From contig JAXHLS010000002.1 in NCBI GenBank assembly GCA_034522055.1, positions 496,001-560,000 on the forward strand: a stretch of 64,000 nt of DNA, read 5' to 3'. Below are positions 24,301-50,169 of the stretch, piece by piece; position 1 is the stretch's first letter, and each line of letters starts with the position of its first letter. The notes under the pieces were generated by a model, which was not told the DNA's origin, made no database searches, and saw only the letters and a program-made list of their open reading frames with translations. The translations under genes were made by a program, and so were the position numbers. Source of the stretch: Gammaproteobacteria bacterium (GTDB lineage: Bacteria > Pseudomonadota > Gammaproteobacteria > JAABTG01).

Positions 24301-27300
24301 CACCACGTAGCTCTCGCCGGCATTACTGTTGCCGTTGGGGTCGGCGCCAAAGGCCCCGATGAGGAGGTCGGCGATGCCGTCGCCGTTGACATCCCCGACG
24401 CCGGCCACCGAGCGGCCGGAGAAATCACCGCCGCCGATGCCGTTGAGCACGAAGCCGTCGCTGCCGTCCAAGGCGCCTAGGTCCACGCTCGCCCCGAAGC
24501 CCCCGGCGCGGCCAAAGACCACGTAGCTCTCGCCGGCATTACTGTTGTCGTTGGGGTCGGCGCCCCGGGCCCCGATGATGAGATCGTCGATGCCATCGCC
24601 GTTGACGTCGCCGGCGCCGGCCACTGAATAGCCGGAACGGTCGTCAAAGTCGATGCCGGTGAGCACAAAGCCGTCACTGCCATCGAGCGCCCCGACGTCC
24701 ACGCCGGCCCCGAAGCCCCCGGCGCGGCCAAAGACCACGTAGCTCTCGCCGGCGCTGCTGTTGCCGTTGGGGTCGGCGCGCCAGGCCCCGATAAGGAGGT
24801 CGGCGATGCCGTCGCCATTGACATCTCCGGCACCCGCCACCGAGCGGCCGGAGTAGTCGTCGCCGTCGATGCCGGTGAGCACGAAGCCGTCGCTGCCTTC
24901 CAGGGCGCCGAGGTCCACGCTCGCCCCGAAGCCCCCGGCACGCCCGAACACCACGTAGCTCTCGCCGGCATTACTGTTGCCGTTGGGGTCGGCGTAGTAG
25001 GCCCCAATGAGGAGTTCCGCGATGCCGTCGCCGTTGATGTCTCCGGCGCCGGCCACCGAAACGCCGGAGTTGTCAAAACTGTCAATGCCGGTAAGCACGA
25101 AGCCGTCGCTGCCTTCGAGGGCGCCGAGGTCCACGCTCGCCCCAAAGCCCCCGGCACGGCCGAAGACCACGTAGCTCTCGCCGGCATCACTGGTGCCGTT
25201 GGGGTCGGCGCGGTAGGCCCCTATGAGGAGGTCGTCGATGCCGTCGCCGTTGACGTCCCCGGCGCCGGCTACCGAGTAGCCAGAGCGGTCGTCGAAGTCG
25301 ATGCCGGTGAGCACGAAGCCGTCGCTGCCTTCGAGGGCGCCGAGGTCGATGCTGGCCCCGAAGCCCCCGGCGCGCCCGAAGACCACGTAGCTCTCGCCGG
25401 CATCACTGGTGCCGTTGGGGTCGGCGCCCGAGGCCCCGATGATGAGGTCATCGATACCGTCGCCGTTGATGTCTCCGGCGCCGGCCACCGAGATGCCGGA
25501 AAAGTCACTGGTATCGATGCCGTTGACCACGAAGCCCGCGCTGCCGTCGCCGCCGTTGGCCCCCAGCAGGCTCGCTAGGTCGAAGACCCCCGCCGGGCCG
25601 GCATCGTCGATGCCGGAGAGGGTCACTGTCACGGTACCCGTGTCGGTGGCGCCGTTGCCGTCGCTTACCGTGTAGCCGAAGGTGTCGGTGGCGGTCTCGC
25701 CCGCGGCAAGGGATTCGAACTGGCCGTTGGGATCGTAGGCGAAGGTGCCGTCGGGATTGACGGTGAGCAGGGCCCCGGAGGCCAGGGTGATCGGGCTGCC
25801 CACGGCCGCACCGGAGCCGTCGACGGCGCTGATGGTGAGGGTGTCGCCGACATCCGGATCGGAGTCCGCGCCGTTGCCGTTGTCGGCGAGCAGGTTGCCA
25901 CCGAGGACCGTGTTCTCATCGGTGGCCACGGCGTCATCCGCGGCCACCGGCGCGTCGTTGACGCCGGTGACGGTCACCGTGACGGTGGCGGTGTCGGTAC
26001 CGCCGTTGCCGTCGCTGACGGTGTAGCCGAAGGTATCGGTGGAGGTCTCGCCCGCGGCCAGGGATTCGAACTGGCCGTTGGGGTCGTAGTTGAATGTGCC
26101 GTCGCCGTTGCTGGTCACCAGGCCCTGGGTGGCGGTGGTATCCAGGGCGCTGACGAACAGGACGTCCGACGCGTCCGGATCGGTGTCGTTGGCCAGCACG
26201 TTGGCGGTGGTGAGAACGGTGTCCTCGTCGGTGGTGGCCAGGTCGTCCTGGGCCGTGGGTCCATCGTTGACCCCGGTGACGGTGAGCGTGACGGTGGCGG
26301 TGTCGGTGGCGCCGTTGCCGTCGCTTACCGTGTAGCCGAAGGTGTCGGTGGCGGTCTCGCCCGCGGCAAGGGATTCGAACTGGCCGTTGGGATCGTAGGC
26401 GAAGGTGCCGTCGGGATTGACGGTGAGCAGGGCCCCGGAGGCCAGGGTGATCGGGCTGCCCACGGCCGCACCGGAGCCGTCGACGGCGCTGATGGTGAGG
26501 GTGTCGCCGACATCCGGATCGGAGTCCGCGCCGTTGCCGTTGTCGGCGAGCAGGTTGCCACCGAGGACCGTGTTCTCATCGGTGGCCACGGCGTCATCCG
26601 CGGCCACCGGCGCGTCGTTGACGCCGGTGACGGTCACCGTGACGGTGGCGGTGTCGGTACCGCCGTTGCCGTCGCTGACGGTGTAGCCGAAGGTATCGGT
26701 GGAGGTCTCGCCCGCGGCCAGGGATTCGAACTGGCCGTTGGAGTCGTAGTTGAATGTGCCGTCGCCGTTGCTGGTCACCAGGCCCTGGGTGGCGGTGGTA
26801 TCCAGGGCACTAACAAACAGGAGGTCGCCGTCGGTGTCGTTGGCCAGCACATTGGCGGTGGTGAGAACGGTATCCTCGTCGGTGGTGGCCAGGTCGTCCT
26901 GGGCCGTGGGTCCATCGTTGACCCCGGTGACGGTGACCGTGACGGTGGCGGTGTCGGTGTCGGTGGCGCCGTTGCCGTCGCTTACCGTGTAGCCGAAGGT
27001 GTCGGTGGCGGTCTCGCCCGCGGCAAGGGATTCGAACTGGCCGTTGGGATCGTAGGCGAAGGTGCCGTCGGAATTGACGGTGAGCAGGGCCCCGGAGGCC
27101 AGGGTGATCGGGCTGCCCACGGCCGCACCGGAGCCGTCGACGGCGCTGATGGTGAGGGTGTCGCCGACATCCGGATCGGAGTCCGCGCCGTTGCCGTTGT
27201 CGGCGAGCAGGTTGCCACCGAGGACCGTGTTCTCATCGGTGGCCACGGCGTCATCCGCGGCCACCGGCGCGTCGTTGACGCCGGTGACGGTCACCGTGAC

Positions 27301-30060
27301 GGTGGCGGTGTCGGTACCGCCGTTGCCGTCGCTGACGGTGTAGCCGAAGGTATCGGTGGAGGTCTCGCCCGCGGCCAGGGATTCGAACTGGCCGTTGGGG
27401 TCGTAGTTGAATGTGCCGTCGCCGTTGCTGGTCACCAGGCCCTGGGTGGCGGTGGTATCCAGGGCGCTGACGAACAGGACGTCCGACGCGTCCGGATCGG
27501 TGTCGTTGGCCAGCACGTTGGCGGTGGTGAGAACGGTGTCCTCGTCGGTGGTGGCCAGGTCGTCCTGGGCCGTGGGTCCATCGTTGACCCCGGTGACGGT
27601 GAGCGTGACGGTGGCGGTGTCGGTGGCGCCGTTGCCGTCGCTTACCGTGTAGCCGAAGGTGTCGGTGGCGGTCTCGCCCGCGGCAAGGGATTCGAACTGG
27701 CCGTTGGGATCGTAGGCGAAGGTGCCGTCGGGATTGACGGTGAGCAGGGCCCCGGAGGCCAGGGTGATCGGGCTGCCCACGGCCGCACCGGAGCCGTCGA
27801 CGGCGCTGATGGTGAGGGTGTCGCCGACATCCGGATCGGAGTCCGCGCCGTTGCCGTTGTCGGCGAGCAGGTTGCCACCGAGGACCGTGTTCTCATCGGT
27901 GGCCACGGCGTCATCCGCGGCCACCGGCGCGTCGTTGACGCCGGTGACGGTCACCGTGACGGTGGCGGTGTCGGTACCGCCGTTGCCGTCGCTGACGGTG
28001 TAGCCGAAGGTATCGGTGGTGGTCTCGCCCGCGGCCAGGGATTCGAACTGGCCGTTGGGGTCGTAGTTGAATGTGCCGTCGCCGTTGCTGGTCACCAGGC
28101 CCTGGGTGGCGGTGGTATCCAGGGCGCTGACGAACAGGACGTCCGACGCGTCCGGATCGGTGTCGTTGGCCAGCACGTTGGCGGTGGTGAGAACGGTGTC
28201 CTCGTTGGTGGTGGCCAGGTCGTCCTGCGCCGTGGGTCCATCATTGGCAGCGGTGACGGTGACCGTGACGGAGGCGGTGTCGGTGGCGCCGTTGCCGTCG
28301 CTGACGGTGTAGCCGAAGGTGTCGGTGGCGGTCTCGCCCCCGTTCAGGGCCCCGAACTGGTCGTTGGGATCGTAGGCGAAGGTGCCGTCGGGATTGACGG
28401 TGAGCAGGGCCCCGGAGGCCAGGGTGATCGGGCTGCCCACGGCCGCACCGGAGCCGTCGACGGCGCTGATGGTGAGGGTGTCGCCGGCATCCGGATCGGA
28501 GTCCGCGCCGTTGCCGTTGTCGGCGAGCAGGTTGCCACCGAGGACCGTGTTCTCATCGGTGGCCACGGCGTCATCCGCGGCCACCGGCGCGTCGTTGACG
28601 CCGGTGACGGTAATAAAGGCGGTGGCGGTGGCGGTGCCGCCACGGGCATCCGTGACGGTATAGTTGATGCCCTCGGTGAGGGATTTACCCTGACGAAGCT
28701 GCTGGTAGAGGTCGCTGGTGCGCGGGTCGAAGGTGAGGGTGCCGTCCGGCGTGAGGGTGATGGTGGAGCCGCTCAGGGACTGGAGGTTAGCAGAGACCAC
28801 TGCAATGCCATCGCCATCCGGGTCGGTATCGTTGGCCAGCACGTTGAGGGTGACGGATGCGTCCTCACTGGTGCTCGCCGTGTCGTCGGCAGGCGTGGGC
28901 GGGGCGTTCAGCAGCACCGTCTGGGGCTCGGTCCCGGGTGCCAGCGCGTCCTCCGGGGGGGGCGGTGGCGGGTCCCCGCCGTCGTCCTGGCCGCCATCGG
29001 CGCCGCCGTCCGCGGCGGTGTCCTCGCCCCCGGGGCCGTCATCGCCGTCGTCGTCATCGGCGTCCGGGGCGCCGGGCGCGAACTCGTTGAAGCCGCCGGC
29101 ATCCTGGGCCTGTTGCTCGGCGGGATCTTCCTGTTCCTGCTCCTGGGGCGTGGGCCGCGGCGGCAGCTTGTTCTGGAAGTCGGCCTTCATGGCCGGCGGG
29201 GCCTGGTAGACCGGAATCGGTGCATCGCCCGGGGCGACGGTGGTGGCGGTATCGGTGCGGATCAGGCTGACGATGCCGGTGCCGTTGACGTCCTGGACTT
29301 CGAGGATGCCGCTGGAATGCAGGATATGGGTGGTACCGTCCGACTCCACCTCGCCGTCCAGCTCGCTGCCGCGAATGCCGATGGTGGCCACCGGGGTCTT
29401 GATGGTGGAGTGGCGCCCGGTCTGGAGTTCGGCGAGCTTGCCGCTGACATAGCGGAAGGCGCCGATGAGCACGGTGGAGGCGAAGCTGCCCTCGGAGGCC
29501 TCGGGCTGGTAGGTGAACTCGTCCAGCACGGCGCGGGCGTTGGCGCCCAGCTGGAAGAAGGTGCCGTCCTGGAAGCGGATGCTGACGAAGCCGCTCTTGG
29601 TCTCGAGGACATCACCCTCGAACACCGCGTCGCCGTGCTTGAGCAGGCGCAGCTCGCCGTCGGCACCCCGGGCGGTGACCACGCCCCCAAGGTTCCTGAC
29701 GGTGCCGATCCTGGCGGCGTCGGGCTCGGCCGAGAAACGGGCACGGATGCTGTCCAGCAGCCCGGCCACCTGCACCGGCTCGGGGGCCGGGCCCGCCAGG
29801 GCGAGGACGGTGGCACCGTGGACCTTGGGCCCGCCGGGGGACACCAGATCGGCGGGCGCGGCGGCCTTGAAGTAGTCCTGGAGCACGTGCTCGCGACCCC
29901 CGGGCTGGCGCAGCACCAGGTCGGCGCCCTGGCGCAGGTACTCGCCCTGAAGCAGAAGCGGTGCATCGTCGACGAGGCGGACAGGCGCCCCCCCGGCACT
30001 GTCCGCGACTGCCGCTCCCGGCGTGAGAGCACCCGATTCCGTATTGATCGGCCCCTTCAT
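21319..30060 (-). CDS. Giant FecR/cadherin-like/FG-GAP/RTX surface protein, type I secretion substrate
   Basis: 2,913 residues from ATG 30060 with GGGGAGG ribosome site. Order: residues 1-115, a BapA-prefix-like region with no signal peptide; 118-280, a FecR-like domain (TVRNLGGVVTARG, STIKTPVATIGIRGSEL); 304-380, an acidic Pro/Gly/Gln linker; 388-1490, cadherin/VCBS-like domains, mostly alternating A (~115 aa) and B (~104 aa) types; about 1492-2010, seven FG-GAP blades (GDVNGDGIDDLLIGA); then RTX nonapeptides (GGAGDDFLDGGPGAD) and a beta-rich linker; about 2197-2913, a second copy of the whole blade-RTX module. Asp-rich GDVNGDG loops and RTX repeats should bind Ca2+ and fold outside the cell. 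The lack of Sec signal, RTX near the C-terminus and the flanking exporter genes mark it as the substrate of this system. A role in adhesion or biofilm is inferred. Confidence 0.92.
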   Translation of the reverse strand: MKGPINTESGALTPGAAVADSAGGAPVRLVDDAPLLLQGEYLRQGADLVLRQPGGREHVLQDYFKAAAPADLVSPGGPKVHGATVLALAGPAPEPVQVAGLLDSIRARFSAEPDAARIGTVRNLGGVVTARGADGELRLLKHGDAVFEGDVLETKSGFVSIRFQDGTFFQLGANARAVLDEFTYQPEASEGSFASTVLIGAFRYVSGKLAELQTGRHSTIKTPVATIGIRGSELDGEVESDGTTHILHSSGILEVQDVNGTGIVSLIRTDTATTVAPGDAPIPVYQAPPAMKADFQNKLPPRPTPQEQEQEDPAEQQAQDAGGFNEFAPGAPDADDDDGDDGPGGEDTAADGGADGGQDDGGDPPPPPPEDALAPGTEPQTVLLNAPPTPADDTASTSEDASVTLNVLANDTDPDGDGIAVVSANLQSLSGSTITLTPDGTLTFDPRTSDLYQQLRQGKSLTEGINYTVTDARGGTATATAFITVTGVNDAPVAADDAVATDENTVLGGNLLADNGNGADSDPDAGDTLTISAVDGSGAAVGSPITLASGALLTVNPDGTFAYDPNDQFGALNGGETATDTFGYTVSDGNGATDTASVTVTVTAANDGPTAQDDLATTNEDTVLTTANVLANDTDPDASDVLFVSALDTTATQGLVTSNGDGTFNYDPNGQFESLAAGETTTDTFGYTVSDGNGGTDTATVTVTVTGVNDAPVAADDAVATDENTVLGGNLLADNGNGADSDPDVGDTLTISAVDGSGAAVGSPITLASGALLTVNPDGTFAYDPNGQFESLAAGETATDTFGYTVSDGNGATDTATVTLTVTGVNDGPTAQDDLATTDEDTVLTTANVLANDTDPDASDVLFVSALDTTATQGLVTSNGDGTFNYDPNGQFESLAAGETSTDTFGYTVSDGNGGTDTATVTVTVTGVNDAPVAADDAVATDENTVLGGNLLADNGNGADSDPDVGDTLTISAVDGSGAAVGSPITLASGALLTVNSDGTFAYDPNGQFESLAAGETATDTFGYTVSDGNGATDTDTATVTVTVTGVNDGPTAQDDLATTDEDTVLTTANVLANDTDGDLLFVSALDTTATQGLVTSNGDGTFNYDSNGQFESLAAGETSTDTFGYTVSDGNGGTDTATVTVTVTGVNDAPVAADDAVATDENTVLGGNLLADNGNGADSDPDVGDTLTISAVDGSGAAVGSPITLASGALLTVNPDGTFAYDPNGQFESLAAGETATDTFGYTVSDGNGATDTATVTLTVTGVNDGPTAQDDLATTDEDTVLTTANVLANDTDPDASDVLFVSALDTTATQGLVTSNGDGTFNYDPNGQFESLAAGETSTDTFGYTVSDGNGGTDTATVTVTVTGVNDAPVAADDAVATDENTVLGGNLLADNGNGADSDPDVGDTLTISAVDGSGAAVGSPITLASGALLTVNPDGTFAYDPNGQFESLAAGETATDTFGYTVSDGNGATDTGTVTVTLSGIDDAGPAGVFDLASLLGANGGDGSAGFVVNGIDTSDFSGISVAGAGDINGDGIDDLIIGASGADPNGTSDAGESYVVFGRAGGFGASIDLGALEGSDGFVLTGIDFDDRSGYSVAGAGDVNGDGIDDLLIGAYRADPNGTSDAGESYVVFGRAGGFGASVDLGALEGSDGFVLTGIDSFDNSGVSVAGAGDINGDGIAELLIGAYYADPNGNSNAGESYVVFGRAGGFGASVDLGALEGSDGFVLTGIDGDDYSGRSVAGAGDVNGDGIADLLIGAWRADPNGNSSAGESYVVFGRAGGFGAGVDVGALDGSDGFVLTGIDFDDRSGYSVAGAGDVNGDGIDDLIIGARGADPNDNSNAGESYVVFGRAGGFGASVDLGALDGSDGFVLNGIGGGDFSGRSVAGVGDVNGDGIADLLIGAFGADPNGNSNAGESYVVFGRAGGFGASVDLAALGSDGFVLTGIDGGDFSGRSVAGAGDVNGDGIDDLLVGANLADPNDNTDAGESYVVFGRPTAGAAAVEGTDLADAPLDGTGAGEYLLGLVGDDILNGLDGDDHLIGGAGDDFLDGGPGADTAAGGPGNDTIVYDALDTRVVGGGGDDTVTTGPAGSNLTIDLTTGRGDPGASHYSEYRDIEIFDIRTNADNTLVLDATALFAVTDARNTLRVRGDAADTVQTTDSGWVDEGTEVVDAVTYQRFTQGQAVLLVEQGMTLAGGLTPEVFDLGSLLAANGGDGSAGFVLNGIDGGDRSGYSVAGAGDVNGDGIDDLIIGAFRADPNGTSDAGESYVVFGHAGGFAASVDLGALDGSDGFVLTGIDLNDYSGRSVSGAGDVNGDGIDDLLIGAHYADPNGNSTAGESYVVFGRAGGFGTSINLGALDGSDGFVLTGIDSFDRSGVSVAGAGDVNGDGIADLLIGAYLADPNGNSNAGESYVVFGRVGGFGDSVDLGALDGSDGFVLTGIDSGDGAGSSVSRAGDVNGDGIDDLLIGADGADPNGNNQAGESYVVFGRAGGFGASVDLGALDGSDGFVLTGIDSLDFSGRAVAGTGDVNGDGIDDLLIGAQDADPNGTGSAGESYVVFGRAGGFGASLDLGTLDGSDGFVLTGIGSGDRSGVSVAGAGDVNGDGIHDLLIGAFGADPDGNSAAGESYVVFGRAGGFGASMDLGALTGSNGFVLTGIAANDFSGNSVAGAGDVNGDGIDDLLIGAYGADPNGNDLAGESYVVFGRPTAGAAVVEGSAGADTVTGTGAGEYLLGLAGDDILNGLDGDDHLIGGAGDDVLDGGPGADTAAGGLGNDTIVYDALDTRVVGGGGVDTLRVAGAGELIDFSGMGRLNTESVERIDLTGTGDNTLALSFARVFDLAQDFNLFTADDTRQVVVDGDEGDSVNLFADDPADVSAGAAVDIGGTQYTPYTHAGLAATVFMADELAVDTQVLVG
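21690..23470 (-). repeat. Second propeller-RTX module (seven FG-GAP blades)
   Basis: Within the giant gene, seven ~216-bp units (72 residues) encode one FG-GAP blade each, with GDVNGDGIxDLLIGA, AGESYVVFGRxGGFG and GSDGFVLTGI at fixed spacing. I counted seven GDVNGDG cores here. The propeller part is about 21960-23470 and the RTX part about 21690-21935. It is a paralogous copy of the module at 23.8-25.6 kb. Confidence 0.85.
23830..25585 (-). repeat. First propeller-RTX module (seven FG-GAP blades)
   Basis: Seven FG-GAP blades of ~216 bp, two with GDINGDG and five with GDVNGDG, span about 24070-25585. They are followed by RTX nonapeptides at about 23830-24050. Linker text such as DALDTRVVGGGGDDT is shared with the second module, which shows that the entire block was duplicated. 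Seven is the usual blade number of integrin-alpha-like propellers. Confidence 0.85.
25616..28609 (-). repeat. Near-identical 660-bp tandem repeats encoding paired cadherin-like domains
   Basis: Five A-type and four B-type domains alternate with a period of 660 bp (657 bp for one unit). Landmark sequence recurs at 25745, 26405, 27062, 27722 and 28382. The middle units look almost base-identical. One unit lost 9 bp (NDTDGDLLFV instead of NDTDPDASDVLFV) and gained 6 bp (DTDT), explaining 657. The copy nearest the N-terminus is the most diverged. Such arrays change length by recombination and are also prone to assembly collapse. Confidence 0.92.
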
Positions 30061-37700: not shown

Positions 37701-37888
37701 TCCTCGCCCTCATGCCCCTGGCCCTGGGGATCGGTGAGGGCACCGACGCCCAGGCCCCCCTGGCCCGCGTGGTGGTGGGCGGCCTCGCCTCCTCCGCCCT
37801 CATCACCCTGGCGGTGATCCCCGTGGTCTACTCCCTGTTCCACCGCGGCGGGCGCCGCCGCCCGGCCGGGGATGCGGTGCCGGCGTAG
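34787..37888 (+). CDS. RND-family efflux pump permease (HAE1-like)
   Basis: 1,033 residues, typical length for AcrB/MdtB relatives. The first helix begins at the N-terminus ([18 protein letters not shown]). Two large periplasmic loops and two six-helix bundles follow, with conserved segments [24 protein letters not shown] and [20 protein letters not shown]. It is a proton-driven exporter working with the adaptor encoded just upstream. The substrate is not predictable from sequence. The last ~120 bases of the gene, together with a REP palindrome, are duplicated at 38.7 kb. Confidence 0.93.
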
Positions 37889-37919
37889 GGCCGTCGGCTG
37901 CCAGGAGCAGCCGACCTAC
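37769..37919 (+). repeat. Direct repeat, left copy (RND pump 3' end)
   Basis: The last 120 bp of the RND pump gene and the adjoining REP palindrome recur at 38699-38849 exactly 930 bp downstream, with about five differences in 151 bp. The toxin-antitoxin pair lies between the two copies. Confidence 0.9.
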
Positions 37920-38173
37920 GCCAAGGCCCGCCCGTAGGTCGGTTGCTCCCGGCAACCGACATCCGCGCCGGCAAACCGCCGGGGTCCGGTCGGGGTTCCT
38001 CCTGAATCCTGTCATGGAGTAACTTGACCCCAAATGGGGGTTATTCTTATACGTAACTGGAGTGTTCGTTCGTTTCTGGAACACGCCCTTACACGGTACA
38101 GGTAAACACGAACCTGGATGCATTACCCGACGATCAGGCCGTTAACGCTTAAGAGCGATTGAAGGAGACCACC
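37889..38173. other. Gap between RND pump and antitoxin with REP palindromes
   Basis: 285 bp without a convincing gene. It holds two 9-bp palindromes with 5-nt loops: GTCGGCTGC...GCAGCCGAC at 37893-37915 and GTCGGTTGC...GCAACCGAC at 37938-37960. An AT-richer stretch (38030-38130) likely holds the toxin-antitoxin promoter; it includes CCCCAAATGGGGG near 38027-38039, a short dyad. Confidence 0.6.
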
Positions 38174-38640: not shown

Positions 38641-38698
38641 CCCCCGCACAGGACAAACGGCTAAAACAACAAGCGCCGCATAGCGGGATGTGGGCGGA

Positions 38699-38849
38699 GT
38701 GGTGGTGGGCGGCCTCGCCTCCTCCGCCCTCATCACCCTGGCGGTGATCCCCGCGGTCTACTCCCTGTTCCACCGCGGCGGGCGCCGCCGCCCGGCCGGG
38801 GATGCGGTGCCGGCGTAGGTCCGTCGGCTGCCGGGAGCAGCCGAGCTAC
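38699..38849 (+). repeat. Direct repeat, right copy (RND pump 3' end, promoterless remnant)
   Basis: A copy of the last ~120 bp of the RND pump gene, including its stop codon and a degenerate REP palindrome (38823-38845). Only the C-terminal ~39 codons are present, so it is a gene fragment. Recombination between this copy and the left one would excise the toxin-antitoxin pair and leave an intact pump gene. Confidence 0.9.
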
Positions 38850-38877
38850 ACCCCTCTCCGCACGTACAGCGGCCGGC

Positions 38878-41221: not shown

Positions 41222-41767
41222 TCACCCCCACCCCGCCAGCCACAGCCGCAGCCGCAGGCCCCAGGCGCTGGTGTAGCCGCGGGTGACGAAGCGGATATGG
41301 CCGTCGCCGTCCAGCACGAACACCGCCGGCACGCCGCGCACGCCGTAGCGTCCGGCGAGGACGCCCGTGGCATCGGCGATGGCGGGCCAGTCCAGACCGG
41401 CCTCCTCCAGATAGGCCGCCACCTCCGAAGCCGGCCCGGAATGCAGCGCCACCGTGACCCCCGGGTGGTCGGCGAGGATGCCGTCCATGGCGCCCTGGCT
41501 GGCGGCGCACAGGGGGCACCACTCGGCCCAGAAGTAGATCAACGACGGACGCCCCTGGAGGGCGGCGAGGGAGAAGGACCGGCCGTCGGTGAGGGTGGCG
41601 GCGATGGCGGGCGCGGGGCCACGGGCCGCGTCCCGGGTCATGAAGCGCTCCACCCCCAGCAGGATGACCACCAGCAATAACAGCTCACCCGCCAGGACGG
41701 TGAGCCGGCGCGGCGTCAGGCGACCGCGCAGCCAGGCCCCGGCACGCCGGCGCTCATCAGGCGCCAT
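41222..41767 (-). CDS. Membrane-anchored thioredoxin-like protein (ScsD/TlpA type)
   Basis: 181 residues from ATG 41767, overlapping the stop of the glycosyltransferase gene by 11 bases. One N-terminal membrane helix (LTVLAGELLLLVVILLGV) places the thioredoxin domain in the periplasm. The active site is WCPLC (Cys84, Cys87), and the cis-Pro region reads GVRGVPAVFVLD. It resembles ScsD and TlpA proteins, which reduce disulfides in copper stress or cytochrome c maturation. A dihaem cytochrome lies directly downstream, so a role in its maturation is plausible but inferred. Confidence 0.88.
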   Translation of the reverse strand: MAPDERRRAGAWLRGRLTPRRLTVLAGELLLLVVILLGVERFMTRDAARGPAPAIAATLTDGRSFSLAALQGRPSLIYFWAEWCPLCAASQGAMDGILADHPGVTVALHSGPASEVAAYLEEAGLDWPAIADATGVLAGRYGVRGVPAVFVLDGDGHIRFVTRGYTSAWGLRLRLWLAGWG

Positions 41768-42800
41768 GACCGCGCCCCTCCGGTCGCCCCCGGTAGGCCG
41801 CAAGGGCCGTCGGCGCCCGCCACCAGCCCGCCAGGCGGGGCAGCCATGCCAGGGCCCGGGGCCCCAGGCGCGGCACCGCCTCGACGCACAGCTTGACCCA
41901 GATCGCCGCCACCATGGCATCCAGGGCCCGGGGATCGTAACGCCCCACGGCCCGGTTCGCGGCCCGGATCCCCTCCAGCCACGCCCGGGCCCAGGCCAGA
42001 TAGTCCTCGTCCAGGCCCCCTTCCAGGTGGCGGACGCGCCACAGGGCGTAGTGGCGCGCGAGGTCGTCGTCACCGGGCTCGAGCCCGAGGGCACGGAGTT
42101 CCGCGGCCATGATGGCCAGTTTCCTTTCCCGGCCGAGTTCCCAGGTGGCACGCGTGAAGCGGCCCTCGTGCTGGCGCGCGTAGACCAGCACCTCCGGCAG
42201 GTTGGCCAGCCGGTGATGCACCGCCATGCGGGCATGGAGCTCGTAGTCCTGGCAGCGGGTGAAGGCCTCGTCGTAGCCGTACTCCCGGGCCACGGCCGTG
42301 CGCAGCATCACCGAGCGGTTGCGCAGGGCGCAGCGGAACAGCAGATGCACGTCCACGTCGGCCGCCCGCAGGGGCTCACGACGCACCCGGAGGCGGCGCC
42401 GACCGCCCGCATCCACATCCCGGCCCCAGGTCCCCACCACGGCGTGGTCGGGATGGGCGTCGAGAAACGCCACCTGACGCTCCAGGCGCCGGGGATGACA
42501 GAGGTCGTCGCTGTCCAGGTTGGCCAGGTACTTGCCCCGGGCCAGCTCCAGGGCATGGTTGCGGGTACGCGGGATCCCCTGGTTCTGCTCATGGCGGGCG
42601 ATGACGATGCGCGAGTCGTGGAAGGCCTCCACCACGGCCACCGTGCCATCGCTGGAACCGTCGTCGATCACCAGCAACTCGAAGTCGGTGAAGGTCTGGG
42701 CGAGCACGCTGGTGACGGCGGCCGCGATGTGCGCCTCGCGATTGTAGGTGGGGATGAACACCGTGACCCGCGGTGCCCGGGAGCCTCCCTTCACAGACAT
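41757..42800 (-). CDS. Family 2 glycosyltransferase
   Basis: 347 residues. A GT-A fold is clear from VTVFIPTYNREAHIAAAVTS, FELLVIDDGSSDGT, RTRNHALELARGKYLANLDSDD (the DxD metal site) and ERQVAFLDAHPDHAVVGTWG. It should transfer a sugar from a nucleotide donor. No membrane helix is seen. Its 3' end overlaps the thioredoxin gene. It is divergent from the kinase-like gene at 42887. A decayed partial copy lies at 40.5 kb. Neighbouring glycan genes suggest a role in lipopolysaccharide or surface polysaccharide. Confidence 0.9.
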   Translation of the reverse strand: MSVKGGSRAPRVTVFIPTYNREAHIAAAVTSVLAQTFTDFELLVIDDGSSDGTVAVVEAFHDSRIVIARHEQNQGIPRTRNHALELARGKYLANLDSDDLCHPRRLERQVAFLDAHPDHAVVGTWGRDVDAGGRRRLRVRREPLRAADVDVHLLFRCALRNRSVMLRTAVAREYGYDEAFTRCQDYELHARMAVHHRLANLPEVLVYARQHEGRFTRATWELGRERKLAIMAAELRALGLEPGDDDLARHYALWRVRHLEGGLDEDYLAWARAWLEGIRAANRAVGRYDPRALDAMVAAIWVKLCVEAVPRLGPRALAWLPRLAGWWRAPTALAAYRGRPEGRGHGA

Positions 42801-42886
42801 GGCGCCGATGGGGCCGCGGGGCGGCCTCTACGCGGTGCCGGCACGACGCTATACTGTCGCCCCTTTGCCGGCCGGGTCTTCATCCC

Positions 42887-43711
42887 ATGCAACGATTTCG
42901 ATTTCACCAGTCCTCCGCCTATGGGGGTTGGCACCGCTTGCGGGCGGTGCTGCTGCGGATCCGCGGCGGCGGCATGGGGAAGTCCCAGCGCCTGTATTTC
43001 GTCACCCTCAATGGCCACCGCTACAAACGGTTGATCCTACAGGATTCCAGTACGGCCCGGGGTTTGGAGGCGCGCCTGGAACGGCTGGGCTTCGGGCCTG
43101 CCTTTCCCCGTGTGGTGACCCGCTATGAGAACGAGCTGTGGCTGGAGTTCGTGGACGGCCGGGCCGTGACCGCCGCGGACCCGACCCTGGTGGAGGCGGT
43201 GGCGGGTTTCTATGCCGCCCTGCATCACGACGGCCCCCGGCTGGCAACCCTCGAGGACAGTCGCCTGCTTCTGCGCCTGGGCCGGGACCTCGACTTCCTG
43301 CACCAGGCCGGGGTCCTGGACCACGAGCGCCGTACCCACCTGAAGGAGGCCGCCCACCGCCTGGCGCCCGCGACCCTGTGGATGGGCCTGGACTACGTGG
43401 ACCCGGTGCTCAAGAACTTCGTGCTGCGGGATGACGGTGCCGGCCTGTGTGCCGTGGATGCCGAGAGCCTGGTGGATGACCATCCCCTCGGTAGCGGTAT
43501 CGCCAAGGCCCTGATCCACTGGCTGCGGCCCTGGGAAGAGGACTTCTGGGGTCACTTCGAGGCCGCGGGCGGACCCGCCATCCGCGAGGCCTTCCCCTTC
43601 GTGGAACTCTGCTTCGTCGCCCGCTGGACCAAGACCAAGGTGCTTACCGGCAAACACAAGGTGGTTGATCCGCGTCACTTCGAACCATTCCTTGTAACCC
43701 CATCCGGCTGA
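42887..43711 (+). CDS. Kinase-fold (LPS core kinase/APH-like) protein
   Basis: 274 residues from ATG 42887. The fold looks like the protein-kinase/APH superfamily: an N-terminal lobe with HRYKRLILQDSSTARGLEAR, a hinge around ENELWLEFVDGR, and a C-lobe catalytic loop DYVDPVLKNFVLRDD followed by LCAVDAESL, which corresponds to the metal-binding DFG position. This resembles lipopolysaccharide core kinases and Kdo kinase more than antibiotic kinases. The classic HxD is replaced by DYVDP, so catalytic activity is not certain. It sits among glycosyltransferases, which supports a role in surface-glycan modification. Confidence 0.65.
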   Translation: MQRFRFHQSSAYGGWHRLRAVLLRIRGGGMGKSQRLYFVTLNGHRYKRLILQDSSTARGLEARLERLGFGPAFPRVVTRYENELWLEFVDGRAVTAADPTLVEAVAGFYAALHHDGPRLATLEDSRLLLRLGRDLDFLHQAGVLDHERRTHLKEAAHRLAPATLWMGLDYVDPVLKNFVLRDDGAGLCAVDAESLVDDHPLGSGIAKALIHWLRPWEEDFWGHFEAAGGPAIREAFPFVELCFVARWTKTKVLTGKHKVVDPRHFEPFLVTPSG

Positions 43712-43953: not shown

Positions 43954-46413
43954 TCAGGCGTCCACTGCCTGGCCCGTGGCGAGACGACCATCACCCGATA
44001 CACCGCCGCCCGGTACCTCTCGCCAGTGCCGCTCCCCCAGCCCCTCACGGATCCACGCCACGGTGAGCGCCAGCTCGTCGGGGGGCGGGATGGGCGCCGG
44101 GCCTTCGCTCTCCGCTCCCAGGGGCCGCACCAGGCCCCGGGCCAGCAGTTCCTGGTGCAGCCGCCCCATGTCCCGGGCCGTCTGCAGGACCCCTGCGGCC
44201 ACCAGGCGGTCGCGCCAGCGGCCCCGCCAGTCCTGCTGCCGCGGCGTACCCCGGTGGCTCGCCATGGGGTTGCTGCCGGTGAGGAACTGCCCGACGCCCC
44301 GCACCCAGCACCCCAGGCCGGGGGCGGCCTCCGCCAGGGGGAAGAGTTCCACCGGGCGCCCGGTGGCCACCGTCTCCGCCAACATGGAGGCGCTGTCGCC
44401 GGTCACCACGAAGCGGTCACAGGAGGCCAGATAGACCCCCAGCGGGTTGGTCTCAGCACCGGCGCCCCAGCGGTGCCGATGGGCCGGCACGTCGATGGCA
44501 TCGAACAGCGCCGTCACCGCCGCCGCCGGCGTGCGCGGGCTGGTGGTGAGCAGCAGTGACCCACCATGGCGGCGCGCGAGGTCATTGAGCAGCCCCCCCA
44601 GACGCCGGCCTTCGGTGGCATCGAAGCGGTAAGACAGGCTGCCACCACCCACCAGGACACCGATCCAGGGGCGTGGCAGGCCGGCGAAGGCCTCCTGCCA
44701 GTGGGCCGTCTCGGTGGGATCATCCTGGGCGGGCGGGCGATTGAGAGGCAATACATTGCACCTGACGTTGTCGCGCAGGGGCAGGCCGTACTGGGGCGTG
44801 GTCACCACCAGGTCGAAATGGTGCAGTGGCGCCCAGGGCCGTCCCAGGTGGACGAGCTGGGTGTGCCCCCCGGATTGCGCCTTTATCCAGCGCGCCACCG
44901 GCACGCTGCGCTTGCCGCAGGCCAGGACCACATCGGGCCACGGTGCCTCCAGGGGGTCACTGGCGGCGCCGTCCACACTCCACCTCGATGGCCCCGCCAG
45001 CCCGTTGGGGAGATGATGAAAGGCATTGTAGGCTAGGCGCTTCTCCTCCCAGGGCCAGCCCAGGGCACGCGCCAGAGTCCGCAACTGCTCCGCATCCCCG
45101 TGGCGATGACCCGTGAGCACCCATACCCGCGGCGGGCGAGCGGGGTTCAGCACCCCCTCCCGCGCCGGGGCCTGGGCGCACAATCGGGTGCGCGCGCCCA
45201 GAGGATGGTAATCCAGGTGCCAGGCCAGGTGGGGATGACGGGCCGCGACGCGGCGCAGCTCGCGGCGCCACCAGTATTCCCGGCGGTGGCCGAGGGCGCC
45301 GTCGGCCACCACTGGCTGCTCCGCCACGGTGACGTAGAGCACCCGCCGGGCACGCCGGGCCAGGGCATCGAGCACCCAGGGCACGTCCTCGGCCGGCAGG
45401 TGCTCCAGCACCCCGGCCACTGCCACCATGTCGGCGGGGGCTGCGGGCCACTCGCCATGGCCGAAATCCCACGGCCACACCACCGTCACCGGCAGGGGTG
45501 GCGGCACCTCCGCCATGCCGCGGGGACCACACCACAGCAACTCCCGCACCCCCCGCTCCCGGGCCAGGGCCACCACCCCGTCGCCGGCCGGCCGGCCGGC
45601 GGCCGCCCTTTTTTTTTCTCCCGGGGCCTCTCCCGGAGTCTCTCCCGAAGCCTGGCCCAGGGCCTGGCGAGCCGCCGCGAACCAGGGGCTCGGGACGTCC
45701 TCCGAAAACACCTCGTAATCGTCGTCATCGGCGGCCCGCTGCAGTTCCTCCCACACCTCGGCCAGGGGATTGCTGTGGTAGGAGTAGGCGGTGGGCGCCG
45801 GCTGCCAGGGCTGCAGATGCAGCGCCGTGTAATGGAGCACCCCGGAACGGGCGGTCACGTATTCCAAATCCCGGGCGTTCCAGCGGCCGTCCAGGGGCCC
45901 CCACAGCCCCGCCTGCGCCGGCGCCCGGGTCAGCTCACGCTTGCGGCCGTGCCGGGCCTGCTCCAGGTTCCACCATGGGGCCATGCGCTCGCAGTCCATG
46001 ACCATCACCGAGGTGTCCTCGGCTGAGACGGCGAGATAACCCGCCTCCCCCAGGGGCAGATCGAACAGTTGCCCCGGATCCACGGTGTAGATCTGGTCCA
46101 CGTCGTTGTAGATGGCCCGCCCGCTACACCCCCCGAACTCGGGGATGGCGAAACGGTACTGGGTGAAGCCCGTGCGCCAGCCCCGGCGCCGGAAGCCCGG
46201 CAGATTCTTCATGAGATACACCCGGTACTCCCGCCCCGGGTCACGGTGGCGCGCCACCGAGTACATGAACACACGGAAGGCCCGGGACTGGTTGTCCTCG
46301 GTACCGAGAAAGATCCGCACCGGCTCCGCGCCGCCCCTGGCCTCGCCGCTGGCCGGCATCACCACGCAGGGAGGATGACCCGGCGCCGCCGGCGGTTCGA
46401 CCTTCGAGGTCAT
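43954..46413 (-). CDS. Three-domain fusion: glycosyltransferase, methyltransferase-like, ELM1-like
   Basis: 819 residues from ATG 46413 (AAGGG nearby; 46425 is an alternative, and the frame stays open to 46623). Residues ~30-215 look like a GT-A-type transferase with NDVDQIYT as the donor-metal motif. A Gly/Glu/Pro linker (EAPGEKKRAAAGRPAG) follows. Residues ~278-415 resemble a class I methyltransferase (ADMVAVAGVLEHLPAEDVPWVLDALAR), but the glycine-rich SAM loop is poor. Residues ~428-760 match the ELM1/DUF1022 glycosyltransferase-like family (VWVLTGHRHGDAEQLRTLARALGW, GVLVGGGSLSYRFD, VVTGDSASMLAETVATGRPVELFP). It is cytosolic by sequence. A multi-step glycan enzyme is inferred; the N-terminal family is the least certain. 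Confidence 0.7.
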   Translation of the reverse strand: MTSKVEPPAAPGHPPCVVMPASGEARGGAEPVRIFLGTEDNQSRAFRVFMYSVARHRDPGREYRVYLMKNLPGFRRRGWRTGFTQYRFAIPEFGGCSGRAIYNDVDQIYTVDPGQLFDLPLGEAGYLAVSAEDTSVMVMDCERMAPWWNLEQARHGRKRELTRAPAQAGLWGPLDGRWNARDLEYVTARSGVLHYTALHLQPWQPAPTAYSYHSNPLAEVWEELQRAADDDDYEVFSEDVPSPWFAAARQALGQASGETPGEAPGEKKRAAAGRPAGDGVVALARERGVRELLWCGPRGMAEVPPPLPVTVVWPWDFGHGEWPAAPADMVAVAGVLEHLPAEDVPWVLDALARRARRVLYVTVAEQPVVADGALGHRREYWWRRELRRVAARHPHLAWHLDYHPLGARTRLCAQAPAREGVLNPARPPRVWVLTGHRHGDAEQLRTLARALGWPWEEKRLAYNAFHHLPNGLAGPSRWSVDGAASDPLEAPWPDVVLACGKRSVPVARWIKAQSGGHTQLVHLGRPWAPLHHFDLVVTTPQYGLPLRDNVRCNVLPLNRPPAQDDPTETAHWQEAFAGLPRPWIGVLVGGGSLSYRFDATEGRRLGGLLNDLARRHGGSLLLTTSPRTPAAAVTALFDAIDVPAHRHRWGAGAETNPLGVYLASCDRFVVTGDSASMLAETVATGRPVELFPLAEAAPGLGCWVRGVGQFLTGSNPMASHRGTPRQQDWRGRWRDRLVAAGVLQTARDMGRLHQELLARGLVRPLGAESEGPAPIPPPDELALTVAWIREGLGERHWREVPGGGVSGDGRLATGQAVDA

Positions 46414-47432: not shown

Positions 47433-48137
47433 TCAAGACCTCTTACTATGCGGAATGCTTTCAGGCTTGGAACCGATTTCGGGATCATTTCCTGCTTCAA
47501 AATAGAGGCCCAGATAGTAGGATCGATTGGTCTTCCAGAGACGGTCCAGGATCCTGTCCAGTCGGATGGCAAACCACCATGAAAGGAAAATCAGAGGCCG
47601 CAATTTCAGAATGGACGAGAATTGATGGACGGCCACCGTGAATGCCCCCAGGCCATGGGGGCGAACCACGATATTGGAGTACCCGGCATTGCTCAGCAGT
47701 ATCTCCAGGGCTTCGTGGGTGAAACGCCAGTAATCCGTCGGGTCCTTGTGGTATCTATGGAGAAAAGGGACGGCACCGAACAGGCGTCCCCCGGGCTTCA
47801 GGACTCTGCGGATTTCCCCGAGAACATTGTTCGTATCGAACACATGTTCGAGCACATTGAACAACAGGACATTATCGAAGGTGGAATCCGAAAGAGGAAA
47901 ACGCGCATTCAGATCAATCTTCAAAACATGGTCTTCGGTGGAGTAGAGATCCGAGAAGGTCAGTTGGGTATCGTCTGCCTGGGTGATGAACTCGTAATAG
48001 GATGAGGTGCCGTTCTTTGCACCCAGGTCCAGACACACCCCATGGAGCCTGACAAAGGCCGAGACGTCATGGTTCTGAACAGCTCTGAGCAACGAACTGC
48101 CCTTCATACATTCCCTGAAAAGAAACGCCCCTTTCAC
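47433..48137 (-). CDS. Class I SAM-dependent methyltransferase, AT-richer than neighbours
   Basis: 234 residues from GTG 48137, whose GTGA overlaps the upstream stop; ATG 48107 with AGGGA is an equally good start. SAM motifs are VCLDLGAKNG, then DLNARFPLSDSTFDNVLLFNVLEHV and LGEIRRVLKPGGRLFGAVPFLHRYH, in the UbiE/methyltransferase-11 pattern. Codon use and base composition are visibly less GC-rich (about half GC, by eye) than all surrounding genes, suggesting acquisition from another genome. It is the last gene of a tightly overlapping set with another methyltransferase and a glycosyltransferase, so it likely modifies a glycan or lipid. Confidence 0.85.
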   Translation of the reverse strand: MKGAFLFRECMKGSSLLRAVQNHDVSAFVRLHGVCLDLGAKNGTSSYYEFITQADDTQLTFSDLYSTEDHVLKIDLNARFPLSDSTFDNVLLFNVLEHVFDTNNVLGEIRRVLKPGGRLFGAVPFLHRYHKDPTDYWRFTHEALEILLSNAGYSNIVVRPHGLGAFTVAVHQFSSILKLRPLIFLSWWFAIRLDRILDRLWKTNRSYYLGLYFEAGNDPEIGSKPESIPHSKRS

Positions 48138-48880
48138 TCGAACCCCATATGCATGACTATGGAGTTGCGCAGCAGCGGATAGCGCCGGCAGTACAATCCG
48201 TCCATGAGGCCCCGGGGCCGTAGGGGCGATAGGGGCTTCAACGGGCCGCCGTGGCAGAGGCTGAAGCGGCGCGGCGACAAGCGCGCATCCATGGCTACCT
48301 TGGCCAAGGTGTAAGGCGTGAACCAGAAACGGTGGTCGGAGTTGATGCGCTCGACGTTGCGGCGGGCCTCGCGGGCATTGCGGTGAGAGAAGCCATTGGG
48401 GACCGTCACCACCAATTCCTCGACGCGCCCTATGAAACGCTGCCGGAGGCCGGCGAGGAAGCGTACGGGATCACCGATGTGTTCCAGCACCTCGGGTAGG
48501 AGCAGATAATCCCAGTGCTGGGCCATGAGGGGCTCACAGGGATCCTCGAGGATATCCAGGGCCGCCGCATCGACGTAGCCCAGGGTGTCACGCATATACT
48601 CGATGCCCTCCTCGTCCAGGTCCACCCCGAAGCAACGGGCGGCGACCCCGTGGAGGGCCTCGTGGAGCCACCGGCCCTGCTCCATCTTCTTTCTGATACC
48701 CGCCACGCCATGGTCCACGCAGCCCACGTGGATGACCTGCCGGCCGGCCACCAGGCGGGTGAGCACATCGAAACGCGATTCATAAACGGCGTCACCGGAC
48801 TCCAGAGCGAAGGTGGCCACCAGATCGTTGGAGAAACGTTCGCCCCGCAAGTAAGCCAGGGTCTCTGCGGTAAGTCTCAC
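48134..48880 (-). CDS. SAM-dependent methyltransferase-like protein
   Basis: 248 residues from GTG 48880, overlapping the glycosyltransferase stop by four bases. The SAM-binding strand reads QVIHVGCVDHGVAG, with CFGVDLDEEGIEYM as the acidic second strand and HWDYLLLPEVLEHIGDPVRFL as motif II. The C-terminal half (NSDHRFWFTPYTLAKVAMDA) resembles glycan-associated methyltransferases found next to family 4 glycosyltransferases. GC content is like the bulk of the window, in contrast to the following gene. Substrate unknown. Confidence 0.82.
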   Translation of the reverse strand: MRLTAETLAYLRGERFSNDLVATFALESGDAVYESRFDVLTRLVAGRQVIHVGCVDHGVAGIRKKMEQGRWLHEALHGVAARCFGVDLDEEGIEYMRDTLGYVDAAALDILEDPCEPLMAQHWDYLLLPEVLEHIGDPVRFLAGLRQRFIGRVEELVVTVPNGFSHRNAREARRNVERINSDHRFWFTPYTLAKVAMDARLSPRRFSLCHGGPLKPLSPLRPRGLMDGLYCRRYPLLRNSIVMHMGFE

Positions 48881-50169
48881 GGCGACGTCTCTCCTGTCGT
48901 TGGCCCCATGGCGCGATCATTCACCGCGGCAGCGGCCGACACCCGGCGACGACCTTCCAGGGGGGCGCCCGGTAACAGTAGGTTCAGATAACCCCGGGCG
49001 CTGCGCGCCTGGCTGAAGTCGCCACCGCGCCGGCGCAGGGTGTCGGCCGTTAGCGGGGCCTCCAGGGTACGGGCCATGGCCGCGGCGAGGGCGGCGGCGT
49101 CGCCCACCGGCACCAACTCGCCGTAACGGCCGCCCTCCAGGATCTCCGCCGGGCCGCTGGGACAGTCGGTGCTCACCACCGGGCAACCACAGGCCAGGGC
49201 CTGGATGAGCACCCCCGGCAGCCCCTCGTAGTCCGAGGACAGGACGAACAGGGACGCCCGGGCGAAGGCCGCGTAGGGATTCTCGACGAAGCCGGGCAGG
49301 GCCACGTCGACCGCGATGCCGAGTTCCCGGACCAGGGCCTCCAGCCGCCCCCGCTCGGGCCCCTCCCCCAGGATCACCAGCCGCGCCTCCCGGCCCGCCC
49401 GCAGGCGGGCGAAGGCCTGGAGCAGCAGGGGAAAGCGCTTCTGGGGCGCCAGCCGCCCGGCCCCCACGATCACCGGCGGGCCGCCGTCGGCCAGCCAGGG
49501 GTGGGGTGGCGGGGCGGCGGCGCGGGCGGGCAGTTCGGGGGTGACCACGGGATTGTAGACCGTGGTGATGGCCGTGCGGGACAAGCCCGTGGTGGCGGCG
49601 AGATCGTCGGCGACGCCATCGGACACGGCGGCGATGCCGTCGGCCCACGGGTAGGTGTGGGCCACCAGGGGGGCGATATGGCGCCAGCGCCATTTGCGGC
49701 TGCGGGCGATGGATTGGGACAGCTGGGTGCGCTCGCTCACCACCACCCGGGTGGGTGCGCCGGCGAGGCGCCGTGCCCACAGGGCCAGCAGGTTGGTGGG
49801 GGTCTTGGCCGCCAGCAGGGCCGCGGGGCGCGCCGCGGTCAGATAGCGGGCGAGGTCCCTGACGTAGGGCTGGACTGGCGCCGGGCGCAGGGGCAACAGG
49901 GCCGGGCGGGCGAGGACGCCGCGCCCGCCTGCGTCCAGACGGGCGAGGCGCAGACGGGCCGCCAGCCCACCCTCGGGATGTAGAGCCACCACCCGCACCC
50001 CCGCCGGCACCATCTCCCGGTAAGGTCCCTCGGCGCGGCACAGTACCAGCTCCACCGGATGGCCGAGGTCCTGGAAGCCCCGGGCCAGGTCCAGGATGGA
50101 ACGGCCGACGCCACCGGCGGCCAGGGAGGGCAGGAGCAGGGCGATGGGGGCTGGGTCGGGATGGTTCAT
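48877..50169 (-). CDS. Family 4 glycosyltransferase
   Basis: 430 residues with the GT-B two-domain fold. N-terminal domain: IALLLPSLAAGGVGRSILDLARG. C-terminal domain: VIVGAGRLAPQKRFPLLLQAFARL, LVILGEGPERGRLEALV, VALPGFVENPYAAF and the nucleotide-sugar site SSDYEGLPGVLIQALACG. It is a retaining transferase of the GT4 type. It heads a three-gene set on the minus strand joined by GTGA overlaps with two methyltransferases, so the products probably build or decorate one surface glycan. Confidence 0.92.
   Translation of the reverse strand: MNHPDPAPIALLLPSLAAGGVGRSILDLARGFQDLGHPVELVLCRAEGPYREMVPAGVRVVALHPEGGLAARLRLARLDAGGRGVLARPALLPLRPAPVQPYVRDLARYLTAARPAALLAAKTPTNLLALWARRLAGAPTRVVVSERTQLSQSIARSRKWRWRHIAPLVAHTYPWADGIAAVSDGVADDLAATTGLSRTAITTVYNPVVTPELPARAAAPPPHPWLADGGPPVIVGAGRLAPQKRFPLLLQAFARLRAGREARLVILGEGPERGRLEALVRELGIAVDVALPGFVENPYAAFARASLFVLSSDYEGLPGVLIQALACGCPVVSTDCPSGPAEILEGGRYGELVPVGDAAALAAAMARTLEAPLTADTLRRRGGDFSQARSARGYLNLLLPGAPLEGRRRVSAAAAVNDRAMGPTTGETSP

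Follow-up and report, generated by a model that had tools for sequence, protein, structure and literature searches.

Sphingolipids are now regarded as widespread among bacteria, and to our knowledge few enzymes that build the sugar part of their head groups have been described. The ceramide/ceramide-phosphoglycerate cluster of Caulobacter (CC_1168-CC_1152) resembles the gene neighbourhoods described here, in which spt, acpR, cerR, aasR, cerS and LptF/LptG paralogues are likewise found near the family under study, but its described head group is phosphoglycerate rather than a glycan, and the accessible part of its description names no glycosyltransferase in the cluster. KdoT of Acinetobacter baumannii (2903) belongs to the ELM1 family and is a proven CMP-Kdo transferase, with an SRRT donor-site motif and R180 defined by mutagenesis (PMC12856342). 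It is a single-domain protein that acts on Kdo2-lipid A. The literature on ELM1 yielded one biochemically characterised bacterial member and no biochemistry for any member of the three-domain family, and a search for ELM1 together with sphingolipids, with most subscription journals outside its reach, gave nothing but unrelated papers among those listed.

The protein analysed here is encoded in a 64,000-nucleotide stretch of gammaproteobacterial DNA (the window) and carries the only ELM1 domain of its genome. It shares with KdoT the ELM1 family, the GT-B fold and an envelope glycolipid context, and an SxRT-like motif in its C-terminal half is a candidate counterpart of the KdoT motif. In contrast to KdoT, it joins the ELM1 domain to a GT8-like and a methyltransferase-like domain, and its family tracks with ceramide genes. 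On balance, we consider it probable that the protein combines two glycosyltransferase activities to assemble an acidic head group on ceramide from putative substrates, with a methyltransferase-like domain as a non-catalytic linker.

Gene, genomic context and distribution of the fusion

The 819-residue frame of the initial annotation lies on the minus strand (Table 1); read on the plus strand, the interval 43954-46413 contains stops. Upstream in-frame starts would lengthen the ORF to 889 residues. An AAGGGA sequence lies about 11 nt 5' of ATG 46413, and homology begins at the 819-residue start; ATG 46413, which fits both the onset of homology and the AAGGGA spacing, therefore appears to be the preferred start. 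An assembly artefact joining separate genes, a concern raised in the initial annotation, was ruled out, because the same fusion recurs in many independent assemblies, with relatives that align full length in dozens of them, including the complete genome AP024683.1 (L020). In a genome of the same genus (G001), the gene order is conserved on both sides and a contig break falls in the linker.

Altogether 57 further three-domain ORFs were found in Pseudomonadota, Nitrospirota, Planctomycetota, Myxococcota and Binatota. The fusion had been described as unusual for ELM1-like proteins; it is rare among them, yet it is a conserved architecture that defines a recurrent family. Three copies of the three-domain gene lie within one region of Azotobacter beijerinckii (L018:617-10800), and two tandem copies were observed in Kushneria sinocarnis (L015:3331-8364). 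Residue conservation was counted over 80 aligned members, comprising 58 three-domain proteins (the window protein included) and 22 two-domain relatives. Pfam matches were counted over 56 aligned three-domain proteins and a 23-row two-domain set, the first row of which is the window middle domain.

The set of GT4, GT2 and three-domain genes is kept in Salinicola, Stutzerimonas and others, and the ORF at 42773..43711 had no match in Pfam or NCBIfam. Elsewhere, the window contains a 2913-residue open frame (21319-30060, minus strand) and a 176-nt direct repeat (37761-37936 and 38691-38866) whose copies, 930 nt apart, share 92% identity.

Table 1. Features of the three-domain gene and its neighbours, in window coordinates.
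Feature	Coordinates	Strand	Remarks
Three-domain gene, 819 aa	43954..46413	minus	ATG 46413-46411, stop 43956-43954; homologues aligned full length
Domain 1, residues 29-245, GT8-like GT-A glycosyltransferase	45679..46329	minus	Pfam GT8 in relatives; GT8 structure matches
DxD motif D104-V105-D106 in NDVDQIY	46096..46104	minus	D104 in 79/80, D106 in 78/80 members
HxTxxxxQPW motif, residues 194-203	45805..45834	minus	H194, T196, Q201, W203 in 80/80; resembles GT8 C-terminal HxGxxKPW
Low-complexity linker, residues 246-275 (ASGETPGEAPGEKK)	45589..45678	minus	pLDDT 53-69 in blocks 251-280; G001 contigs break there
Domain 2, residues 276-415, degenerate class I methyltransferase-like, without glycine-rich SAM loop	45169..45588	minus	Alignment and model
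Domain 3, residues 425-795, ELM1 (PF06258) GT-B glycosyltransferase domain	44029..45141	minus	Pfam and model
SPRT motif, residues 625-628	44530..44541	minus	Candidate counterpart of KdoT SRRT donor-site motif, from an alignment of family members
GT2 glycosyltransferase, conserved neighbour	41757..42800	minus	PF00535; 50-54% identical neighbours in L013, L014, L015, L038, L062, L069
Kinase-like protein, assigned by eye only	42773..43711	plus	True start probably internal to ORF; relatives beside family gene in L038, L021
Separate methyltransferase (Methyltransf_11)	47433..48137	minus	
Second methyltransferase-like gene	48134..48880	minus	Overlaps GT4 gene
GT4 glycosyltransferase, conserved neighbour	48877..50169	minus	73-76% identical in Salinicola and Stutzerimonas loci

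Two glycosyltransferase domains and a degenerate middle domain

The AlphaFold2 model of the window protein had a pLDDT of 88.3 and a pTM of 0.90. With the window protein alone, ELM1 was the sole Pfam match, domains 1 and 2 being below threshold; single-sequence NCBIfam and PDB sequence searches gave no identification of these two domains, and profile searches against PDB sequences returned nothing useful. The domain search and structure prediction proposed in the initial annotation backed the N-terminal and middle domains through the profiles of relatives and through the model.

GT8 (PF01501) matched 8 of the 56 three-domain proteins and 6 members of the two-domain set at E < 0.01, and was absent from the matches of the window protein. 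Model residues 29-234 aligned with the GT8 structure 3tzt with a Z of 17.1 (rmsd 2.8, 189 residues), and domain 1 also matched GlyE (Z 16.1) and LgtC (1g9r, Z 16.0). Besides the residues of the HxTxxxxQPW motif, R181, D182 and E184 are present in 80/80 three- and two-domain members. Judged from the alignment, this conservation pattern is as expected for a working GT8-like enzyme. What had been described as an N-terminal DxD transferase-like part is a GT8-like GT-A domain, with its near-invariant DxD and its match to 3tzt. It shares the GT-A fold, the DxD and the HxGxxKPW-like motif with LgtC, GlyE and 3tzt, but identity to these enzymes is about 18-22%, PF01501 catches only some family members, and the family is fused to ELM1. 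The bifunctional glycosyltransferase WbbM (6u4b), whose second module belongs to a different family, also carries two transferase modules per chain. One of them matched domain 1 with a Z of 16.4, but WbbM is without a methyltransferase-like spacer.

In agreement with the earlier ELM1/DUF1022 assignment, PF06258 matched residues 439-695 of the window protein (E 1.7e-52, 178.9 bits vs. a gathering score of 27), and ELM1 was matched in 56/56 three-domain proteins. Model residues 425-795 matched GT-B enzymes, including UDP-GlcNAc 2-epimerases (Z 18), MGD1 (Z 16.8) and MurG (Z 16.6). The strict form [ST]SxRT of the putative donor-site motif is found in 39 of the 58 three-domain forms and near forms in a few others, and the motif is altered mainly in Geminicoccaceae.

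Folded alone, domain 2 had a pLDDT of 75; its top structural matches were mainly class I methyltransferases (Z about 8-10), and Foldseek gave no match at E < 0.001. Methyltransf_23 was matched in 3/56 three-domain forms and 10/23 rows of the two-domain set. Because PLP enzymes scored close behind the methyltransferases, the predicted methyltransferase fold is likely but not certain. SAM motif I, which reads LLDYGSGK in relatives, is preserved in 17/22 two-domain forms vs. 2/58 three-domain forms and lost in 5/22 vs. 56/58 (Fisher p = 4e-11, uncorrected for relatedness). In the tree of domain 1, the two-domain forms fall into one clade of 22 (support 100/99), inside which motif I is absent in two separate lineages. 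The window protein reads LLWCGPRGM at this position instead of a glycine-rich SAM motif, and the poor SAM loop noted earlier was thus correctly recognised. D343, W346, W382 and W398 are almost invariant, indicating that the domain is retained without its cofactor loop. Domain 2 is therefore most likely a former methyltransferase that serves as a non-catalytic linker or spacer.

Ceramide genes, lipid A genes and a putative CMP-sugar donor

As ORF picking was rough in GC-rich loci and some neighbour ORFs were mis-chosen, neighbours were counted by tblastn, with the ceramide proteins of the window genome as queries. A ceramide gene was found within about 6 kb of the family gene in 35/79 loci, and an MsbA-like ABC transporter was near it in 23/79. 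Serine palmitoyltransferase (SPT) was detected at 400 bits or more in 36 of the 50 carrier genomes, was split at contig ends in three more, and was not clearly found in six or so. In 21 carrier genomes it lies on the same contig within 16 kb of the family gene. SPT was present in 3/51 class relatives without a good ELM1 match, a comparison unmatched for phylogeny, and the ceramide linkage is independent of it.

In Nitrospirales, the order is HIT, acyl-ACP synthetase, CerR-like epimerase/reductase, ACP and SPT, directly followed by the family gene, with a surface-carbohydrate gene downstream; some loci also have GFO/IDH, NeuB, HAD and CMP-sugar synthetase genes there. The interpretation of these Nitrospirales neighbours as exbD-msbA-waaA was discarded, as Pfam identified ceramide genes. 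SPT lies 15.2 kb from the family gene in Salinicola, and LptF/LptG pairs recur near the family gene. In P. luteola, LptF/LptG is accompanied by a lipid kinase (DAGK), a CDP-alcohol transferase and a cytidylyltransferase-like gene, the last three resembling published CPG genes by type (PMC11324152, PMC10331486). A single-domain ELM1 gene immediately follows SPT in G002 and G100; in G002 (L107:7520-10580), ACP, SPT and this gene are consecutive, possibly an unfused version of the same pathway.

In the window genome, contig C6 carries a ceramide cluster, with a bCerS-like acyltransferase, acyl-ACP synthetase, CerR-like protein, ACP, SPT (an NCBIfam equivalog, 623 bits vs. a cutoff of 500) and MsbA-like ABC transporter, and an LptF/LptG pair alongside. 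The window copy of the family gene lies on contig C2 without linkage to this cluster, and its acceptor is therefore assigned by orthology. The MsbA-like ABC transporter adjoins SPT on C6 (L106:11134-12903), and in other genomes its homologues immediately precede the family gene; it is possibly the sphingolipid flippase.

LpxC and WaaA were both undetected in ten genomes (G060, G063, G064, G065, G068, G070, G072, G075, G094 and G100), each of which encodes both the family protein and SPT (the latter as fragments in G070). Among them are a complete genome (G063), Marinimicrococcus flavescens (G060) and Arboricoccus pini (G075). Therefore, Kdo-lipid A cannot be the acceptor in these bacteria. A CMP-sugar synthetase of 126-138 bits was found in seven of the ten (G063, G065, G068, G070, G072, G075 and G094). 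A strong match was absent in G060, one of the ten, and in G083. The window genome encodes one WaaA and one strong CMP-sugar synthetase and so also makes Kdo, which leaves an LPS acceptor some probability there.

A KdsB-type CMP-3-deoxyulosonate synthetase gene lies about 1.5 kb from the family gene in G079, G081, G096 and G097, an assignment checked for L048 of G081 (295 bits vs. 255), and is accompanied by HpcH/HpaI aldolase and dehydrogenase genes in G079, G081 and G097. These findings favour a CMP-3-deoxyulosonic acid as donor, which need not hold for all members. The altered SxRT in Geminicoccaceae and the lack of a strong synthetase match in G060 and G083 suggest that some members use a donor other than CMP-Kdo. 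In the first 4.8 kb of L045, L048, L067 and L068, genes for a KdsB-type synthetase, 2-hydroxyacid dehydrogenase, sugar epimerase and HAD protein lie beside the family gene, joined by an HpcH/HpaI aldolase gene in L045, L048 and L068; this set may form a pathway devoted to making an unusual 3-deoxy-ulosonic acid.

Proposed function and competing explanations

The domains, their conservation, the loss of the SAM loop, the linkage to ceramide genes and the occurrence in bacteria without lipid A are seen directly in the sequences. We infer most strongly that the family acts on ceramide glycolipids; which lipid accepts the sugars, which two donors supply them, in what order the steps run and how the product is transported are likewise inferred. 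The enzyme would work in the cytoplasm, extending the head group of a ceramide-based lipid. Its GT8-like domain would transfer a sugar from a nucleotide-sugar donor, with the metal held by the DxD, and its ELM1 GT-B domain, like KdoT, would use a CMP-activated donor and transfer an acidic 3-deoxy-ulosonic acid, either Kdo or a related sugar, with the former methyltransferase serving as a structural spacer between them. The associated MsbA-like ABC transporter would then flip the completed lipid, and the LptF/LptG paralogues would carry it outward.

An LPS inner-core enzyme, in which ELM1 would add Kdo to Kdo2-lipid A like KdoT and the GT8 domain the next sugar, has the KdoT precedent, the WaaA and CMP-Kdo-type synthetase of the window genome, and two-domain relatives that adjoin a WaaA-like gene. 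However, the ten carriers without both LpxC and WaaA weakened this initially favoured idea, and the neighbourhoods contain ceramide rather than lpx or waa genes, so we regard it as unlikely. A role in capsular or exopolysaccharide synthesis unrelated to sphingolipids, with the linkage reflecting general clustering of glycan genes, would account for neighbouring GT2, GT4, Wzx-like and surface-carbohydrate genes; it is distinctly doubtful, as the ceramide genes are specific and recurrent across phyla, and few dedicated export systems were seen beyond MsbA-like and LptF/LptG. It is least probable, and indeed very improbable, that the enzyme is trifunctional, its middle domain still methylating a glycan or lipid with SAM. 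The probable methyltransferase-like fold, the four conserved residues and the intact motif I of most two-domain forms would agree with this, but nearly all three-domain forms, including the window protein, have lost that motif, and separate methyltransferase genes lie nearby.

The bifunctional ceramide head-group enzyme thus remains our preferred reading. Since both glycosyltransferase domains are well supported, the multi-step surface-glycan enzyme of the initial annotation was right in outline. Three enzyme steps are unsupported, because the middle domain is most likely inactive as a methyltransferase, and a ceramide-based glycolipid is a more probable target than a generic surface glycan.

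That the SAM loop was lost repeatedly while the domain itself was kept is a clear example of what is most likely a former methyltransferase now acting as a spacer. Conserved as a fusion and found together with ceramide genes over several phyla, the family is a specific and testable candidate for a head-group enzyme, and it suggests KdoT-like chemistry on ceramide in bacteria without lipid A. Several Geminicoccaceae are without LpxC and WaaA. We tentatively suggest that some bacteria may build an LPS-like acidic oligosaccharide on ceramide, to which this bifunctional enzyme would add a CMP-activated 3-deoxyulosonic acid, and that in Geminicoccaceae the product may replace lipopolysaccharide.
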